The notes under the pieces were generated by a model, which had not been told where the DNA came from, did no database searches, and saw only the letters and a list, made by a program, of their open reading frames with translations. From a virus, in the IMG/VR virus record IMGVR_UViG_3300030012_001143, positions 1-22,823 of that record: a stretch of 22,823 nucleotides of DNA. One strand, 5' to 3'. Below, one piece after another: positions 2,614-22,163 of this stretch. A program made the position numbers and the translations under genes. Positions within the stretch are counted from its first letter, which is position 1. Each line of letters opens with the position of its first letter.

Positions 2614-3914
2614 TGTCTGAACCCAAACTGTTGTAACGCGGCGTCAACATCGCTTATCCACGCCTCAAGGATTTGAGCCGTTGTTTTGCCCCTGTCTTTC
2701 CCTCTCTTATAAAATTCATCGAACCCGAGAAAAGTGTTGTTCTGCGGATTGTTGGGGTCGTAGTTCAGAACCAAGAATCTATCCGCTTGGGCTAGATATT
2801 TCTGTATTCTTCTTGCCCTGTCGATGTCATTATTTTCGCCTTCGTACCTATACTCTCGATCCCCAGCCAATTCACCAATCGCTATGTTTAGCTGATTTTG
2901 AGCTCTTGCCTCACGGATCAATCCTTTGTTGACCAGCTCTGTATTTTGTTCACTGGGATAGTAGGTTGATGCGAATACAGCATCAAAGTCAGTTTGCGGG
3001 CCTTTGTTCAGACGTAACTCTTCCGAAACCAAACGATTGGACGCCGCTCTGAATTGTTGAGCATTTGAAATAGCGTCAACGTCAACGTCAAATATACCGA
3101 TAGCCGCCAATCGCTCTCTCAACTGATTTTTCAACGCCGCGTTTGGCCCTGTTTCAAACCCGCCTTCCAATATGCGCTGTTGAGTGCCTAGATAAACATT
3201 TTGAGCTCTAGCCTGCTGTGCCCTGCCTCCCACATCGCTGAATAACTGCTCAACCGTTCGCTGTATCTGCGTGTTGTCACCTGGGTTGTTAATAGTGACC
3301 CCAGTACCACCTACAGCACTGATTTTTTCGCGCGTGTCTATGGAGCCATCTGGCAAAATTGCGGCGTTATACATTTTTGCCGGGTCATAAACACCGCCAG
3401 TAATTTTTTCATTTAACTGCGCTCCAGAGAACGTGCGGAAATTAGGCTCCTGAGCCTCTTTGATAAACGCCGCAAAATACTCTTTTGCAAGCATTGGGTT
3501 TGTTTCAATCGCCTGCGCATACTGCTCTGCTTTGGGCCCACCGATCTGGCGAATTGCCGCGGCGGTACGGTTACCTTGCGAGCTCAGCAATTTCATTTGT
3601 TGCGCTGTCTCTAATTGCCTGCCCATCGCTGATGATAGCCCGGCGTCTGGCTGCAGCCGCATTGAGTTAAGCGCCAAAACTAATCTAGCGCGGTTTTCGT
3701 CATCAGAAAGGTATTCATTAACGCCGCGACCAATGCTGCCAAGAATGCCCGTGAGTCTTTCTCCCATACCGGGCGGGCGGGCATAATCAGCTGGCCGTTG
3801 CGTCGGGTCTGCCATAACTTGACGACCAAAGTTGTCAACCCTAAAACTTCTGTTTTCAATTGGCGCAGGGGTAGACGGTGGGACATTGGTAGCTCCCGGT
3901 AACGTAGCGGACAT
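2610..3914 (-). CDS. Virion-associated hypothetical protein (434 aa)
   Basis: The family is not recognised. The first 50 residues are Pro-rich and probably disordered (GATNVPPSTPAPIENR). A helical stretch follows with a basic/acidic mix (GERLTGILGSIGRGVNEYLSD), then long Gln/Ala/Arg-rich helices and a C-terminal helical segment ending in DAALQQFGFRQ. There is no signal peptide, clear transmembrane helix or enzyme motif. It is co-transcribed between the 123-residue and 731-residue genes and overlaps the latter by ATGA. The group of helical, Ala/Gln-rich proteins here is typical of the ejection/internal virion cassette of short-tailed phages, so a role in DNA delivery is a reasonable guess. A structural role in the tail is equally possible. 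Confidence 0.65.
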   Translation of the reverse strand: MSATLPGATNVPPSTPAPIENRSFRVDNFGRQVMADPTQRPADYARPPGMGERLTGILGSIGRGVNEYLSDDENRARLVLALNSMRLQPDAGLSSAMGRQLETAQQMKLLSSQGNRTAAAIRQIGGPKAEQYAQAIETNPMLAKEYFAAFIKEAQEPNFRTFSGAQLNEKITGGVYDPAKMYNAAILPDGSIDTREKISAVGGTGVTINNPGDNTQIQRTVEQLFSDVGGRAQQARAQNVYLGTQQRILEGGFETGPNAALKNQLRERLAAIGIFDVDVDAISNAQQFRAASNRLVSEELRLNKGPQTDFDAVFASTYYPSEQNTELVNKGLIREARAQNQLNIAIGELAGDREYRYEGENNDIDRARRIQKYLAQADRFLVLNYDPNNPQNNTFLGFDEFYKRGKDRGKTTAQILEAWISDVDAALQQFGFRQ

Positions 3915-19958: not shown

Positions 19959-20353
19959 GTGTTTCTACCAAACGGCACAACGATGTCAAACTTCTCCGCT
20001 AGGTGTTTCGAAATAACCTGATAAACCATGTCGACCTCTTGCGTAGTTAGGTCAGAGGTCGACGTTTTATCTAAGACTTTCGCTTGTATCGGTTTCCACA
20101 TGTGATCTTTCACAATTTGCATGGTGGGAGTAATTTCTACCGTTGGCTTCAGTACCTCGCGCATGTCCATGCCCCGGGCACACATTTGCTCTGACACATC
20201 CCGTAGATAAGCGTGCAGCGCATTATTCTGTTTAACAGTGCGCTGCCCACGAGTAATTGCAAAAGTTATATCTGCATCTTGATTTGCGTTTATATAGTCA
20301 ATCAGTGCCTTGCGCTCTTCGCGATTACTCACAATCCATGTTTCACCTGACAT
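19949..20353 (-). CDS. NinB-like recombination mediator (134 aa)
   Basis: The sequence resembles lambda NinB (Orf), a single-strand-binding mediator of strand annealing. It has a strand-rich start (SGETWIVSNREERKALIDYI), a pair of strands ending FAITRGQRT, then the diagnostic VKQNNALHAYLRDVSEQM. The middle matches the family (DMREVLKPTVEITPTMQIVK), as does the final helical part (TTQEVDMVYQVISKHLAEKF). About 140 residues is normal. I use the ATG at 20353 with an AGGTG-type ribosome site 8 nt upstream; a GTG at 20362 is too close to it. It overlaps neighbours on both sides. Together with the annealing protein and SSB at 21735-22823 it suggests a RecA-independent recombination pathway. Confidence 0.82.
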   Translation of the reverse strand: MSGETWIVSNREERKALIDYINANQDADITFAITRGQRTVKQNNALHAYLRDVSEQMCARGMDMREVLKPTVEITPTMQIVKDHMWKPIQAKVLDKTSTSDLTTQEVDMVYQVISKHLAEKFDIVVPFGRNTWE

Positions 20354-20720
20354 GCCGCACACCTTTTGAGTCTACATATTGGCCGTGTGCAGATAACCAT
20401 TTTTCTGCTTGCGTAGGGTTGTCCATAAAATCATGCGTCAACATGTCCAGCATTGTCCATTGCCTCACAGGGATCGGCTCGCCAGGCTTCAGCTCTGGTC
20501 TGAATTGCGCAGGACTCCCGCCCATTTTGTTAGCGCGACTCAACCACATGTTTACAAATCTGGACATCCCCCGGCGCGTCTTACGCTTGCTTGGATTCGC
20601 TTCCAGCCAACAATCCATTGCGTCTAACTCAGTGAAAACATCCACCTCTTTGTAGGCGTGCTGCCACTTCGCAAGCTGCTCGTCAGAGGGTTGCCAATCG
20701 TCACCTTGCTGGGTCTTCAT
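20343..20720 (-). CDS. Replication-associated hypothetical protein (125 aa)
   Basis: The motif W-x-PSDEQLAKW-x-x-AYKEVDV, then ELDAMDCWLEANPSKRKTRRGMSRFVNMWLSRA is common in phage and prophage proteins next to or fused with replication genes (primosome or replisome-organiser C-termini). There it lets a short helical domain contact partners or DNA. Here it stands alone, followed by FRPELKPGEPIPVRQWTMLD and a short tail. No ATPase or nuclease motif is present. The ATG overlaps the upstream stop by ATGA and the gene overlaps the NinB-like gene by 11 bp. A role in replication initiation is inferred from motif and context, not proved. Confidence 0.65.
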   Translation of the reverse strand: MKTQQGDDWQPSDEQLAKWQHAYKEVDVFTELDAMDCWLEANPSKRKTRRGMSRFVNMWLSRANKMGGSPAQFRPELKPGEPIPVRQWTMLDMLTHDFMDNPTQAEKWLSAHGQYVDSKGVRHVR

Positions 20721-21139
20721 TCGTAATCACTCCGCGTCAGCTCTGGAAGGTTAGTAGCACGTTGATCACTAGACGTCTGTTCCCGCGTTCTAAAAAAACC
20801 ATCGTGCTGTGGATACATCCTGTGAAAACGCCTAGCGTAATACGCTCTGTAATTATTGTTAAGCTTAAAAGGTTGTTTGGAAGGTATCGGCACAGGCTCG
20901 CCGCCGTTAATGTTGCCCGAGTGGTCTGTAGGCAAACTAGCAAATATTTTGCTCGACACTGTCGGGGTATTTACGTCTACCTCCCACCTGATGCGCTCGA
21001 AAATAGCATTGGCGCTATAGTGCTTAAAGCCAGCGTGTATCACGTTATTTGTAAACTTAACGAATAAGCGCCAAACTTCTGGGTGTTCATTGTGAAACGC
21101 CTGGCATTGCTCTGCCATTTCTTCCTGTCTAGTTTTCAT
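20717..21139 (-). CDS. Conserved phage protein of unknown function (140 aa)
   Basis: The first half reads AFHNEHPEVWRLFVKFTNNV and GFKHYSANAIFERIRWEV. The second half has FKLNNNYRAYYARRFHRMYP and DGFFRTREQ. The signature W-x-x-F...HY-x-x-x-x-I-x-x-RIRWE...K-x-NNNY-x-x-x-YAR-x-F...P...FF-x-x-R is widely seen in phages and prophages with no known activity; a compact helical domain is expected. I chose the ATG at 21139, preceded by AAGGGG 5 nt upstream. A GTG 15 codons earlier lacks a ribosome site. It is the first gene after the structured gap and probably opens the operon; any promoter must lie at 21140-21466. Confidence 0.72.
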   Translation of the reverse strand: MKTRQEEMAEQCQAFHNEHPEVWRLFVKFTNNVIHAGFKHYSANAIFERIRWEVDVNTPTVSSKIFASLPTDHSGNINGGEPVPIPSKQPFKLNNNYRAYYARRFHRMYPQHDGFFRTREQTSSDQRATNLPELTRSDYE

Positions 21140-21343
21140 TTTTTCCCCTTTTACTGCACAAGCTTCGCCCGTGCTGTTACACACTATACGTTACAAGATA
21201 ACGAGCTACGACTGCTGTATCGAATCTTGACGTCTATCCCGCCTACCTGCTCTCGGCATTCGGGGGCGTGCATAGAGAGGGTCAACTCTGCTCCGGGGTT
21301 ATTTGGTTCCCCGGCCTACCGCCCAACAGTCTCTGGGGATTGT

Positions 21344-21375
21344 TTGCGGTTTTGCTTAGGCTTCGATAAAATCGA
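21344..21375 (+). promoter_or_regulatory. Possible plus-strand promoter overlapped by a 13-bp dyad
   Basis: TTGCGG (21344-21349) and TAAAAT (21367-21372) are separated by 17 bp, which would start a plus-strand RNA near 21379. The -35 box matches the consensus at only half its positions; the -10 box matches at five of six. TCGATaaaATCGA (21363-21375), a perfect dyad, covers the -10 box and could be an operator for the XRE-like protein encoded at 21467-21751. This is weak, purely sequence-based evidence. Confidence 0.25.
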
Positions 21376-21408
21376 TGTGCCGTAGCTTCAGATCCCCTTT
21401 GAAGCGAT

Positions 21409-21463
21409 GGCACTCCTAAAAGTAGTACCCCCCCGAGTGCCGCAACACACCGGGGGGTTTTAA
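21409..21463 (+). terminator. Plus-strand intrinsic terminator that can fold as an H-type pseudoknot
   Basis: On the plus strand CCCCCCG (21429-21435) and CGGGGGG (21451-21457) form a 7-bp GC stem followed at once by TTTTAATTT. This is a good intrinsic terminator for plus-strand transcription. GGCACTC (21409-21415) can instead pair with GAGTGCC (21435-21441). With the C-run in its loop and the G-run after it, both stems can form together as an H-type pseudoknot with no bases between them. On the minus strand the stem is followed by GTACTACTTTT, a poorer terminator for the gene at 21467-21751. Confidence 0.55.
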
Positions 21464-21466
21464 TTT

Positions 21467-21751
21467 CTACACGTTCACTACAACCTGGTTCTCACTGACT
21501 GACACTACCGGCTGCTCCATTTGTTGTACAACGCTCGTTGCTTCCAGTCCTAAATCTAGAAACTCAGAAATCGTCATACCAAAAAATGTAGCAAGGCTCT
21601 CTAGTCGGCTCAACCTCATGTCGATCGCAGCTCGCCAACGTGTGACCTGAATTGGCGCAACGCCCATATGCTTCGCTAATTCTCGGTTGCTCACGCGGTT
21701 TTTAGCCTGCGCGTAACGCACACTTAAACCGGGGTTAAAACGGGATGTCAT
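21467..21751 (-). CDS. XRE/Cro-like helix-turn-helix regulator (94 aa)
   Basis: The DNA-binding unit is SVRYAQAKNRVSNRELAKHM followed by GVAPIQVTRWRAA and then MRLSRLESLATFFGMTISEFLDLGLE. The pattern VSNRELAKHMGV (helix 2), APIQVTRWR (recognition helix) and LESLATFFGMTISEFL (helices 4-5) is the Cro/C1/XRE fold. The 25-residue C-terminus is short and polar (VVQQMEQPVVSVSENQVVVN), with no cleavage or sensor domain, so it is more Cro-like than a full repressor. It overlaps the SSB gene by 17 bp. Its stop is next to the structured gap, a plausible site for its operators. It may regulate the switch from early to later genes. Confidence 0.8.
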   Translation of the reverse strand: MTSRFNPGLSVRYAQAKNRVSNRELAKHMGVAPIQVTRWRAAIDMRLSRLESLATFFGMTISEFLDLGLEATSVVQQMEQPVVSVSENQVVVNV

Positions 21752-22163
21752 CTTCCAGCACTCCTATCTCTTGTGGTTTTCCTTGATCTGCCGCTACCGA
21801 CTTATGATCAGTTTTTGGCTCATCCGATTTGCCGTCTAACAACTGCATTTCAGTGCAAATGATTTCAGTTGTGTACCGCTTCTGACCATCCTTGCCTTCC
21901 CACGACCGTGTACGCAGCGAACCCTCCACGTACATCTTTGCGCCTTTGTGAGCGAGGTTTTTGACTACGTCGGCAAGAGGCCCAAAAAATACACACTTGT
22001 GCCACTCTGTGCGCTCAGCGTCTTGCCCGGTCTTCTTGTCTTTCCAAGACTCTGATGTCGCTACACTCACATTGGTAACAGACCCGCCGGAGGGCATGGC
22101 CCGTGTCTCTGGGTCGTTGCCCACATTGCCAACCAGCATCACTTTGTTTATGCCGCGTTTCAT
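21735..22163 (-). CDS. ssb: Single-stranded DNA-binding protein (142 aa)
   Basis: A bacterial-type OB fold: INKVMLVGNVGNDPETRAM, then SVTNVSVATSESWKDKKTGQ, TEWHKCVFFGPLADVVKNLA, GAKMYVEGSLRTRSWEGKDG and Q-KRYTTEIICTEMQLLDGK. It is followed by a polar linker and the acidic tip DDIPF, the canonical partner-binding tail. It coats replicating and recombining DNA and recruits enzymes through the tail. The ATG at 22163 overlaps the upstream TGA (ATGA). A longer start would run back into that gene without a ribosome site. Length is that of ordinary phage SSBs. It is co-translated with the annealing protein that would use the same substrate. Confidence 0.95.
   Translation of the reverse strand: MKRGINKVMLVGNVGNDPETRAMPSGGSVTNVSVATSESWKDKKTGQDAERTEWHKCVFFGPLADVVKNLAHKGAKMYVEGSLRTRSWEGKDGQKRYTTEIICTEMQLLDGKSDEPKTDHKSVAADQGKPQEIGVLEDDIPF

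Follow-up and report, generated by a model that had tools for sequence, protein, structure and literature searches.

The window, that is, the whole 22,823-base stretch of IMG/VR viral DNA analysed here, carries likely genes that are all encoded by the minus strand, with neighbours abutting or overlapping. According to the ORF list, the sole large gap is the 327 bp at 21140–21466, between genes at 21139 and 21467, and this bears out the single large gap among overlapping neighbours described in a first-pass annotation made from the sequence alone. Its account of the flanks also holds, with a Cro-like HTH gene (PF13443) on one side and a block containing NinB and NinG on the other. The SSB (phrog_44) and HTH genes lie at higher coordinates than the gap, which is the upstream side, and downstream of it follow c9, c1, NinB, NinG, a nuclease, a methyltransferase, terminase and the structural genes. 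The c1 gene had no Pfam or PHROG match and distantly resembles a “replisome organizer” by tblastn (MT980840 gp42). Across the loci compared, the usual order on one strand is c0, an SSB-like gene, HTH, the RNA described below, a variable first gene, c1, NinB, an exonuclease (phrog_704) and NinG; the conserved gene c0 matched no family, and its label “Erf” is a guess. No tRNA was found. The features are as follows.

21467–21751, minus: Cro/CI-type HTH gene (c2) upstream of the RNA; PF13443 at 26.0 bits (cut-off 22), phrog_4583
21378–21466, plus: candidate antisense sRNA made up of the H1' hairpin (loop AUCCCCUUU), a ACUCCUAAAAG linker, a terminator hairpin and a U tract; fold z -5.23
21429–21457 and 21458–21466, plus: terminator hairpin and U tract of the candidate sRNA; antisense terminator present in relatives
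21344–21372, plus: putative promoter of the candidate sRNA, TTGCGG-17-TAAAAT; 3/100 shuffles score as well in the window
21335–21397, minus: P6, H1 loop GGGGAU (21397–21392) with AUCCCC (21340–21335) just 5' of the core; permutation test
21189–21338, minus: family A RNA core, 150 model positions; covariance model R1 matches 21190–21338 at 155.8 bits, E 3.7e-37
21210–21331, minus: P1, 8 bp, 21331–21324 with 21217–21210; 99.9% of cells paired, double changes in 7/8 pairs
21265–21323, minus: P2, 4 bp, 21323–21320 with 21268–21265; 100% of cells paired, double changes in 2/4 pairs
21293–21314, minus: P3 hairpin, 6 bp, 21314–21309 with 21298–21293; 99.6% paired, double changes in 4/6 pairs
21274–21289, minus: P2b hairpin, 4 bp, loop UUGACCCU, 21289–21286 with 21277–21274; 98.1% paired, outside the fitted model
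21238–21264, minus: P4 hairpin, loop GAGAGCA, 21264–21255 with 21247–21238; 95.9% paired, double changes in 8/9 pairs
21203–21252, minus: pseudoknot, P4 loop GAGC (21252–21249) with GCUC (21206–21203); 100% paired, double changes in 2/4
21145–21174, minus: 3' hairpin P8 (21174–21156) and the conserved AAAAGGGG (21152–21145); AAAAGG in relatives
20717–21139, minus: c9, first gene behind the RNA, function unassigned, phrog_13625; unrelated genes instead in relatives
20343–20720, minus: c1, conserved neighbour gene; tblastn to MT980840 gp42, E 2e-9

The folding check proposed in the first-pass annotation came out in favour of structure, with the gap folding better than dinucleotide-shuffled controls on both the plus strand (z -3.95, 0/100 as good) and the minus strand (z -3.01, 2/100 as good). 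Since the 150-nt core alone is of ordinary stability (z -1.26, 20/200 shuffles as good), the energy signal of the gap comes mostly from the outer hairpins, and it is covariation, not energy, that makes the case for the core. The annotation had also counted at least seven inverted repeats in 230 bp, some of them mutually exclusive. This number did not emerge from an inverted-repeat search of 21000–21600, where both arms fell within the gap in three (I1, I3, I4) of 10 pairs. By comparative structure it is about right, since six core helices are accompanied by the hairpins H1 and P8, the terminator and the P6 pairing. Mutually exclusive pairings are supported, with alternative partners available for the terminator arm (I3) and for the H1 loop and P6 strand.

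Protein searches led to two relatives, L013 and L014, in which the gap is 94% and 92% identical in DNA to that of the window, whereas the proteins of the next gene are only 63% and 36% identical. In conservation the non-coding stretch therefore exceeds the next gene, and the RNA (family A) persists while the first gene changes, as between the window and L014. In a further relative, L002, the core is 81% identical to that of the window. Conservation among relatives, on whose absence the first-pass annotation would have given up its candidate, was thus looked for and found.

With a DNA pattern and the covariance model, family A was detected in at least 133 IMG/VR contigs besides the window, a lower bound in which contigs are not independent events. 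The first pattern, drawn from the core, returned 74 IMG/VR stretches, two of them chance matches (L078, L088) and 72 with the whole core; these 72 represent 71 contigs since L032 and L072 are the two ends of one. A second pattern, drawn from a different part, returned at least 120 stretches. Among the matches listed for it were 65 new loci, and R1 found the RNA in 60 of these, two being cut by contig ends, and missed it in L106, L126, L132, L137 and L155. Two further members (L203, L241) came from the survey of c1 loci and are counted in the 133. R1 was built on the 53 sequences of alignment A3, from which L054 was left out, and gave one match in each of 100 loci scanned, these having been chosen as members. 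The first pattern fixes the GAGCNGAGTTGACCCTC columns in A3, and members found by the second free that region; 41 of the 43 rows of alignment A4 do not match the first pattern, one of these (L106) being a non-member. Loci of identical sequence were dropped before the locus counts for terminators, promoters, folds, loops, the P6 split and start sites. The RNA is single copy per record (10/10 records), and the two copies in record G002 are due to overlapping contig ends. On contig 3300045135_000767 (34.6 kb), to which L032 and L072 belong, the RNA stands at both ends, 32 kb apart, which means that the contig ends overlap; this genome, of ~32 kb, is probably either a circle or circularly permuted.

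The gap encodes a structured, conserved RNA, and of this we are practically certain. Helices P1–P4 and the pseudoknot were first read from the alignment by eye, and P2b was added from the members found by the second pattern. In A3, aligned with MAFFT alone, the share of paired cells is 98.2%, compared with 83.0% after shuffling. In alignment A5 (100 loci, 94 distinct), fitted to P1–P4 with the pseudoknot and P2b lying outside the fitted model, the six helices have 98.7% of cells paired (86.7% shuffled), 362 double-change cells (93.5 shuffled) and a covariation of 0.372 (0.146 shuffled). None of these values was reached in 500 shuffles, double changes occur in 25 of 35 pairs, and sliding the partners by 1–3 columns lowers the pairing to 37–44%. 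The minimum-energy fold of the window core yields P1, P2, P3, P2b and P4 unaided. Outside the helices, 43 of the 81 unpaired core columns are at least 97% conserved. P2b occurs as GGAG/CUCY, AGAG/CUCU, GUAG/CUAC and AUAC/GUAU, and at L094:5455–5603 and L098:1434–1582 the near-invariant GGAGUUGACCCUCU hairpin is swapped for AUAC-CUGAGAGU-GUAU, a natural exchange of P2b. In L054 (3212–3399, minus strand) an insert of ~38 nt sits in the P3 arm and the remaining core is intact.

G-U pairs exceed A-C combinations in the covarying helices of A3 (P1 34 vs 0, P3 11 vs 0, pseudoknot 9 vs 0, P4 60 vs 21), which places the RNA on the minus strand, the strand of the operon. The A-C cells of P4 are nearly all in one pair, a mismatch in one subtype, and P2 has neither combination. 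The core also folds better than its own reverse complement in 47 of 47 loci. A coding explanation, considered because some loci have open frames across the core (clusters c13 and c22), was rejected since the frames lie on different strands and in different frames and P3 and P4 carry indels.

No Rfam model matches the family A RNA: cmscan against Rfam 15 gave no match at the gathering score for the whole window, for 20700–21900 at E up to 1, or for seven family A relatives. By blastn, the gap and one relative found nothing among 50,697 GenBank phage records, and another relative found nothing among plasmids. Of two patterns run over genome contigs, one found nothing and the next gave just 4 chance matches to unrelated sequence; this latter pattern catches 71 of 132 known member loci, so that absence from genomes is only half tested by it. 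R1 found no family A in the cultured phages Paracoccus KLEP18-1, Sulfitobacter pCB2047-A and Rhizobium RHph_Y1_10, which have some of the nearest terminases, nor in part of Vibrio 1.275.O, the best score across the cultured phages scanned being 15.1 bits (E 0.37). Our literature searches found no published description of this RNA. The “candidate novel phage RNA” of the first-pass annotation is, then, a new RNA family, being conserved, covarying and outside Rfam.

In window-like loci, P6 is formed by the upstream hairpin loop GGGGA... and the UCCYC that immediately precedes the core on its 5' side. The mean run in 18 such loci, hand-picked for an A(A/C)GGGG loop, was 6.17 bp compared with 5.41 bp when partners were permuted (0/5000, in a test that ignores kinship); an earlier, crude clade split had given 58/500 and 2/500. 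The UCCYC strand is missing in the promoter-bearing clade. Of 54 distinct loci, 32 by hand count have a sigma70-like promoter directly upstream of the RNA, at a similar place, its forms being TTGACT-19-TATCTT, TTTACA-17-TATCTT, TTGCAC-17/18-TATCAT or closely similar; none was seen there in the window. An operator cluster need not be invoked for the core, but could still account for a palindrome that, in one clade, covers the sense -10. On the 3' side, 55 of 56 distinct downstream segments have a hairpin and then AAAAGG, placed at +125 to +142; the window has an AAAAGGG start site. A start codon at suitable spacing stands behind it in 51 of the 56, opening a frame of at least 30 codons in 32 and only a mini-ORF in 19, and four segments have no start within the interval tested. 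Several window-like loci carry AAGGGG in both the H1 loop and the start site. In L002, L023 and L026, a mini-ORF begins right behind AAAAGGG and its TGA overlaps the ATG of the next gene, an arrangement that suggests translational coupling.

On the opposite strand, an intrinsic terminator lies upstream of the RNA in 52 of 57 loci, with its U tract typically 2–8 nt from the HTH stop; in the window the U tract ends at 21466 and the stop codon begins at 21467. Antisense intrinsic terminators upstream of the RNA number 61 in 203 kb compared with 19–22 in the other three classes (54 loci), and the antisense side has 6.3 T of 8, on a side selected for T, compared with 1.8 on the sense side. From the putative promoter at 21344–21372 the predicted sRNA would be ~85 nt long. 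Across the family this promoter reaches ≤5/100 shuffles in 18 of 57 loci (mean z 1.23) and is weak in about half, and the fold energies of the sRNA 5' part choose no strand (antisense better in 19/47, sense in 27/47). On balance the candidate antisense sRNA is somewhat more probably real than an artefact. Direct pairing of its loops with the first start site was slightly better than elsewhere (median fraction 0.21, ≤0.05 in 5/32) and was left as weak, as was a CsrA-type reading of the AGGA loops. Of the four options in the first-pass annotation, two appear to hold at once: the family A core would be the structured operon leader, and the candidate sRNA the plus-strand RNA that stops at the terminator. 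Elsewhere in the window, a strong plus-strand hairpin inside NinB (20030–20072, -19 kcal/mol) is followed by TTTTATCT, a possible second antisense terminator.

The slot itself was surveyed in c1 loci, taking the best 80 of 552 relatives. Family A is present in 40 of these 80, always upstream and on the same strand. At least 1000 nt upstream were available in 26 of the remaining 40, and in 23 of the 26 a second conserved, RNA-like element, family B, occupies the same place; neither was found in the other three of these testable loci (L211, L214, L224). The family B pattern matched 73 stretches, 71 of which were scanned with the family A model without a hit, and blastn found no family B in family A loci. 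The relatives identified through c9 or HTH (L003–L012, L015) have no family A, and one of them, L005, carries family B. The context of family B comprises an HTH gene upstream (50/60), c1 downstream (47/56) and an antisense terminator upstream (63 of 65 testable loci). Two of its hairpins covary in 24 sequences, one with 100% of cells paired and double changes in 4/5 pairs; a closing helix CTAGTC/GACTAG was dropped as unsupported (81% of cells paired, no double change). RNAalifold on alignment A7 gave almost no covariation. On its own strand family B had no Rfam match in four relatives, with a subthreshold algC match (E 1.9) near it in L178, and phage records gave no credible match, with nothing for one query and one 33-base match at E 1 for the other. 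Five loci (L243, L246, L257, L300, L282) hold very divergent family B members, and a recognised c1 within 2 kb is absent in four of them (L246, L257, L300, L282); family B may reach into other phage groups.

From the structure, strand, slot and exchange observed above we infer the action of the RNA. A conserved fold at a fixed slot and strand, with free exchange of the next gene and replacement by an unrelated RNA, argues for a cis controller of the whole operon, and it is likely that family A is a cis-acting leader. It would lead the gene block that begins with the replication and nin genes and continues into the terminase and structural genes, and the folded RNA would act in cis on all transcription passing through it, probably switching on the main gene block of the phage. 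Since no promoter was seen in the window, the leader there would probably be transcribed by read-through from the SSB–HTH genes. As a first choice, the folded leader would modify the elongating RNA polymerase, like lambda nut or HK022 put; as a second, it would govern how ribosomes enter at the start site a fixed distance behind it. The candidate opposite-strand RNA, whose sequence complements the P6-forming 5' arm, could hold the leader in an off fold, although that the sRNA acts on the leader is a tentative proposal. The most likely reading overall is that an exchangeable cis-acting leader governs the main operon through put/nut-like elongation control tuned by an antisense sRNA. To this whole explanation, the operon leader with elongation control as first choice and the candidate antisense sRNA, we assign a probability of about 0.5.

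Processive antitermination by the leader is placed first, still as a conjecture, because the slot is like that of nutR and putR and the layout like pO/OOP/tO. In the window, the 21 kb that follow the RNA showed no clean sense-strand intrinsic terminator, and in 54 loci sense terminators showed no enrichment downstream (22 in 203 kb) over upstream (19 in 203 kb), so that nothing obvious needs anti-termination; some relatives (L051, L063, L020, L074) do have clear sense terminators downstream. The fixed start-site spacing fits translation control equally well. In a translational switch, a possibility ranked second, the AAAAGGG start site would be opened or closed by the RNA, alone or together with a ligand or protein, and the antisense sRNA would release the UCCYC strand so that it could cover that site. 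It would account for AAAAGG at a fixed distance, the AAGGGG shared by H1 loop and start site in several window-like loci, the P6 covariation and the unpaired core columns conserved as at ligand or protein sites. Of the features of a riboswitch, these conserved columns are the one observed. It sits poorly with the downstream segments offering only a mini-ORF or no start, with the free exchange of the first gene and with a promoter-bearing clade that has no UCCYC strand.

A trans-acting phage RNA binding a host machine (polymerase, ribosome or an Hfq/Csr-type protein) is unlikely: the compact conserved fold and the promoter of its own in 32 of 54 loci would suit it, but a terminator directly behind is absent and the RNA is continuous with the start site and operon. 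Still less probable is a replication element, either a pair like ColE1 RNA II/RNA I or a transcription-activated origin. The dual RNAs, the single copy and the adjoining SSB and replisome-organizer-like genes speak for it; on shallow inspection, however, no iterons or AT-rich unwinding tract were seen, the covariation at the RNA level exceeds the needs of a DNA origin, and the two transcripts overlap only briefly in the promoter-bearing clade. We give hardly any credence to a catalytic or intron-like RNA. The 5' CAGAGAYUA and the AAGAU before the P1 3' strand resemble the group I R and S elements in motif only, and there was no Rfam intron or ribozyme match in the window, nor in seven relatives at E up to 5, no P3–P6 region, and no resemblance in the family B that fills the same slot.

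Returning to the cis-acting leader, a wider reading, which we regard as speculative, is that the slot is filled by A or B, unrelated large knotted RNAs each with an opposite-strand sRNA, as interchangeable RNA-only operon controllers of a new class acting on the transcription complex. As part of that joint reading, the phages sharing the slot would be a large, uncultivated, largely marine-type group with at least two such RNAs and a genome-long operon. To our knowledge, very few elements of RNA-only control of phage transcription are known, put being the model. If the reading is true, two covarying RNA classes at one locus in uncultivated phages would be independent solutions to compare, and it would become testable how nascent RNA alone reprograms polymerase or ribosome entry. 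Since neither family is in Rfam, genome annotation misses both.

HK022 put brings about terminator read-through and contacts the beta-prime zinc-binding domain. In the available portion of its description, put is ~70 nt long with two stem-loops in a V shape, putR lies ~270 nt downstream of the PR start, and put acts on terminators 10 kb away with no dedicated protein needed (PMC9378689). Family A would likewise be a phage leader RNA of an early operon; a sigma70-like promoter stands directly upstream of it in 32/54 loci, though not in that of the window. Its slot, with a Cro-like gene on one side and replication and nin genes on the other, is one we take to be the map position of lambda nutR and near that of HK022 putR. 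Unlike put, family A has 150 nt and six helices with a pseudoknot, and no common sequence was noticed; this difference in fold led us to reject family A as a put element. As far as the part of the source available to us describes it, lambda OOP is a short opposite-strand RNA that starts in the interval separating the cro/cII-side regulator from the replication genes and ends adjoining the 3' end of the regulator, in the unit pO/OOP/tO (PMC3985674). The candidate sRNA is like OOP in layout only: its end in the window abuts the stop codon without reaching the regulator coding region, and its sequence complements the 5' arm of the structured leader. The anti-hemB model (RF02837), of the similar C-rich-loop sRNAs, matches the opposite-strand stretch in three of 11 relatives at a loose threshold, namely L178 (35.8 bits, E 5.9e-5), L217 (E 0.47) and L020 (E 0.61), and not in the window. 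With the best score below the gathering score of 49.5, the opposite-strand RNA was not accepted as anti-hemB. The L178 match (3636–3715, minus strand) lies on the opposite strand beside family B, a hint that phage C-rich-loop sRNAs may form a wider class. In ColE1, the antisense RNA I competes with the folding of the structured sense RNA II, and the candidate pair might work alike, its overlap being short and any part in replication conjectural. Membership of the group I introns was rejected since the Rfam intron models do not recognise the core in the window or seven relatives. Family A thus stands as a new RNA family outside put, the group I introns and the families of Rfam.
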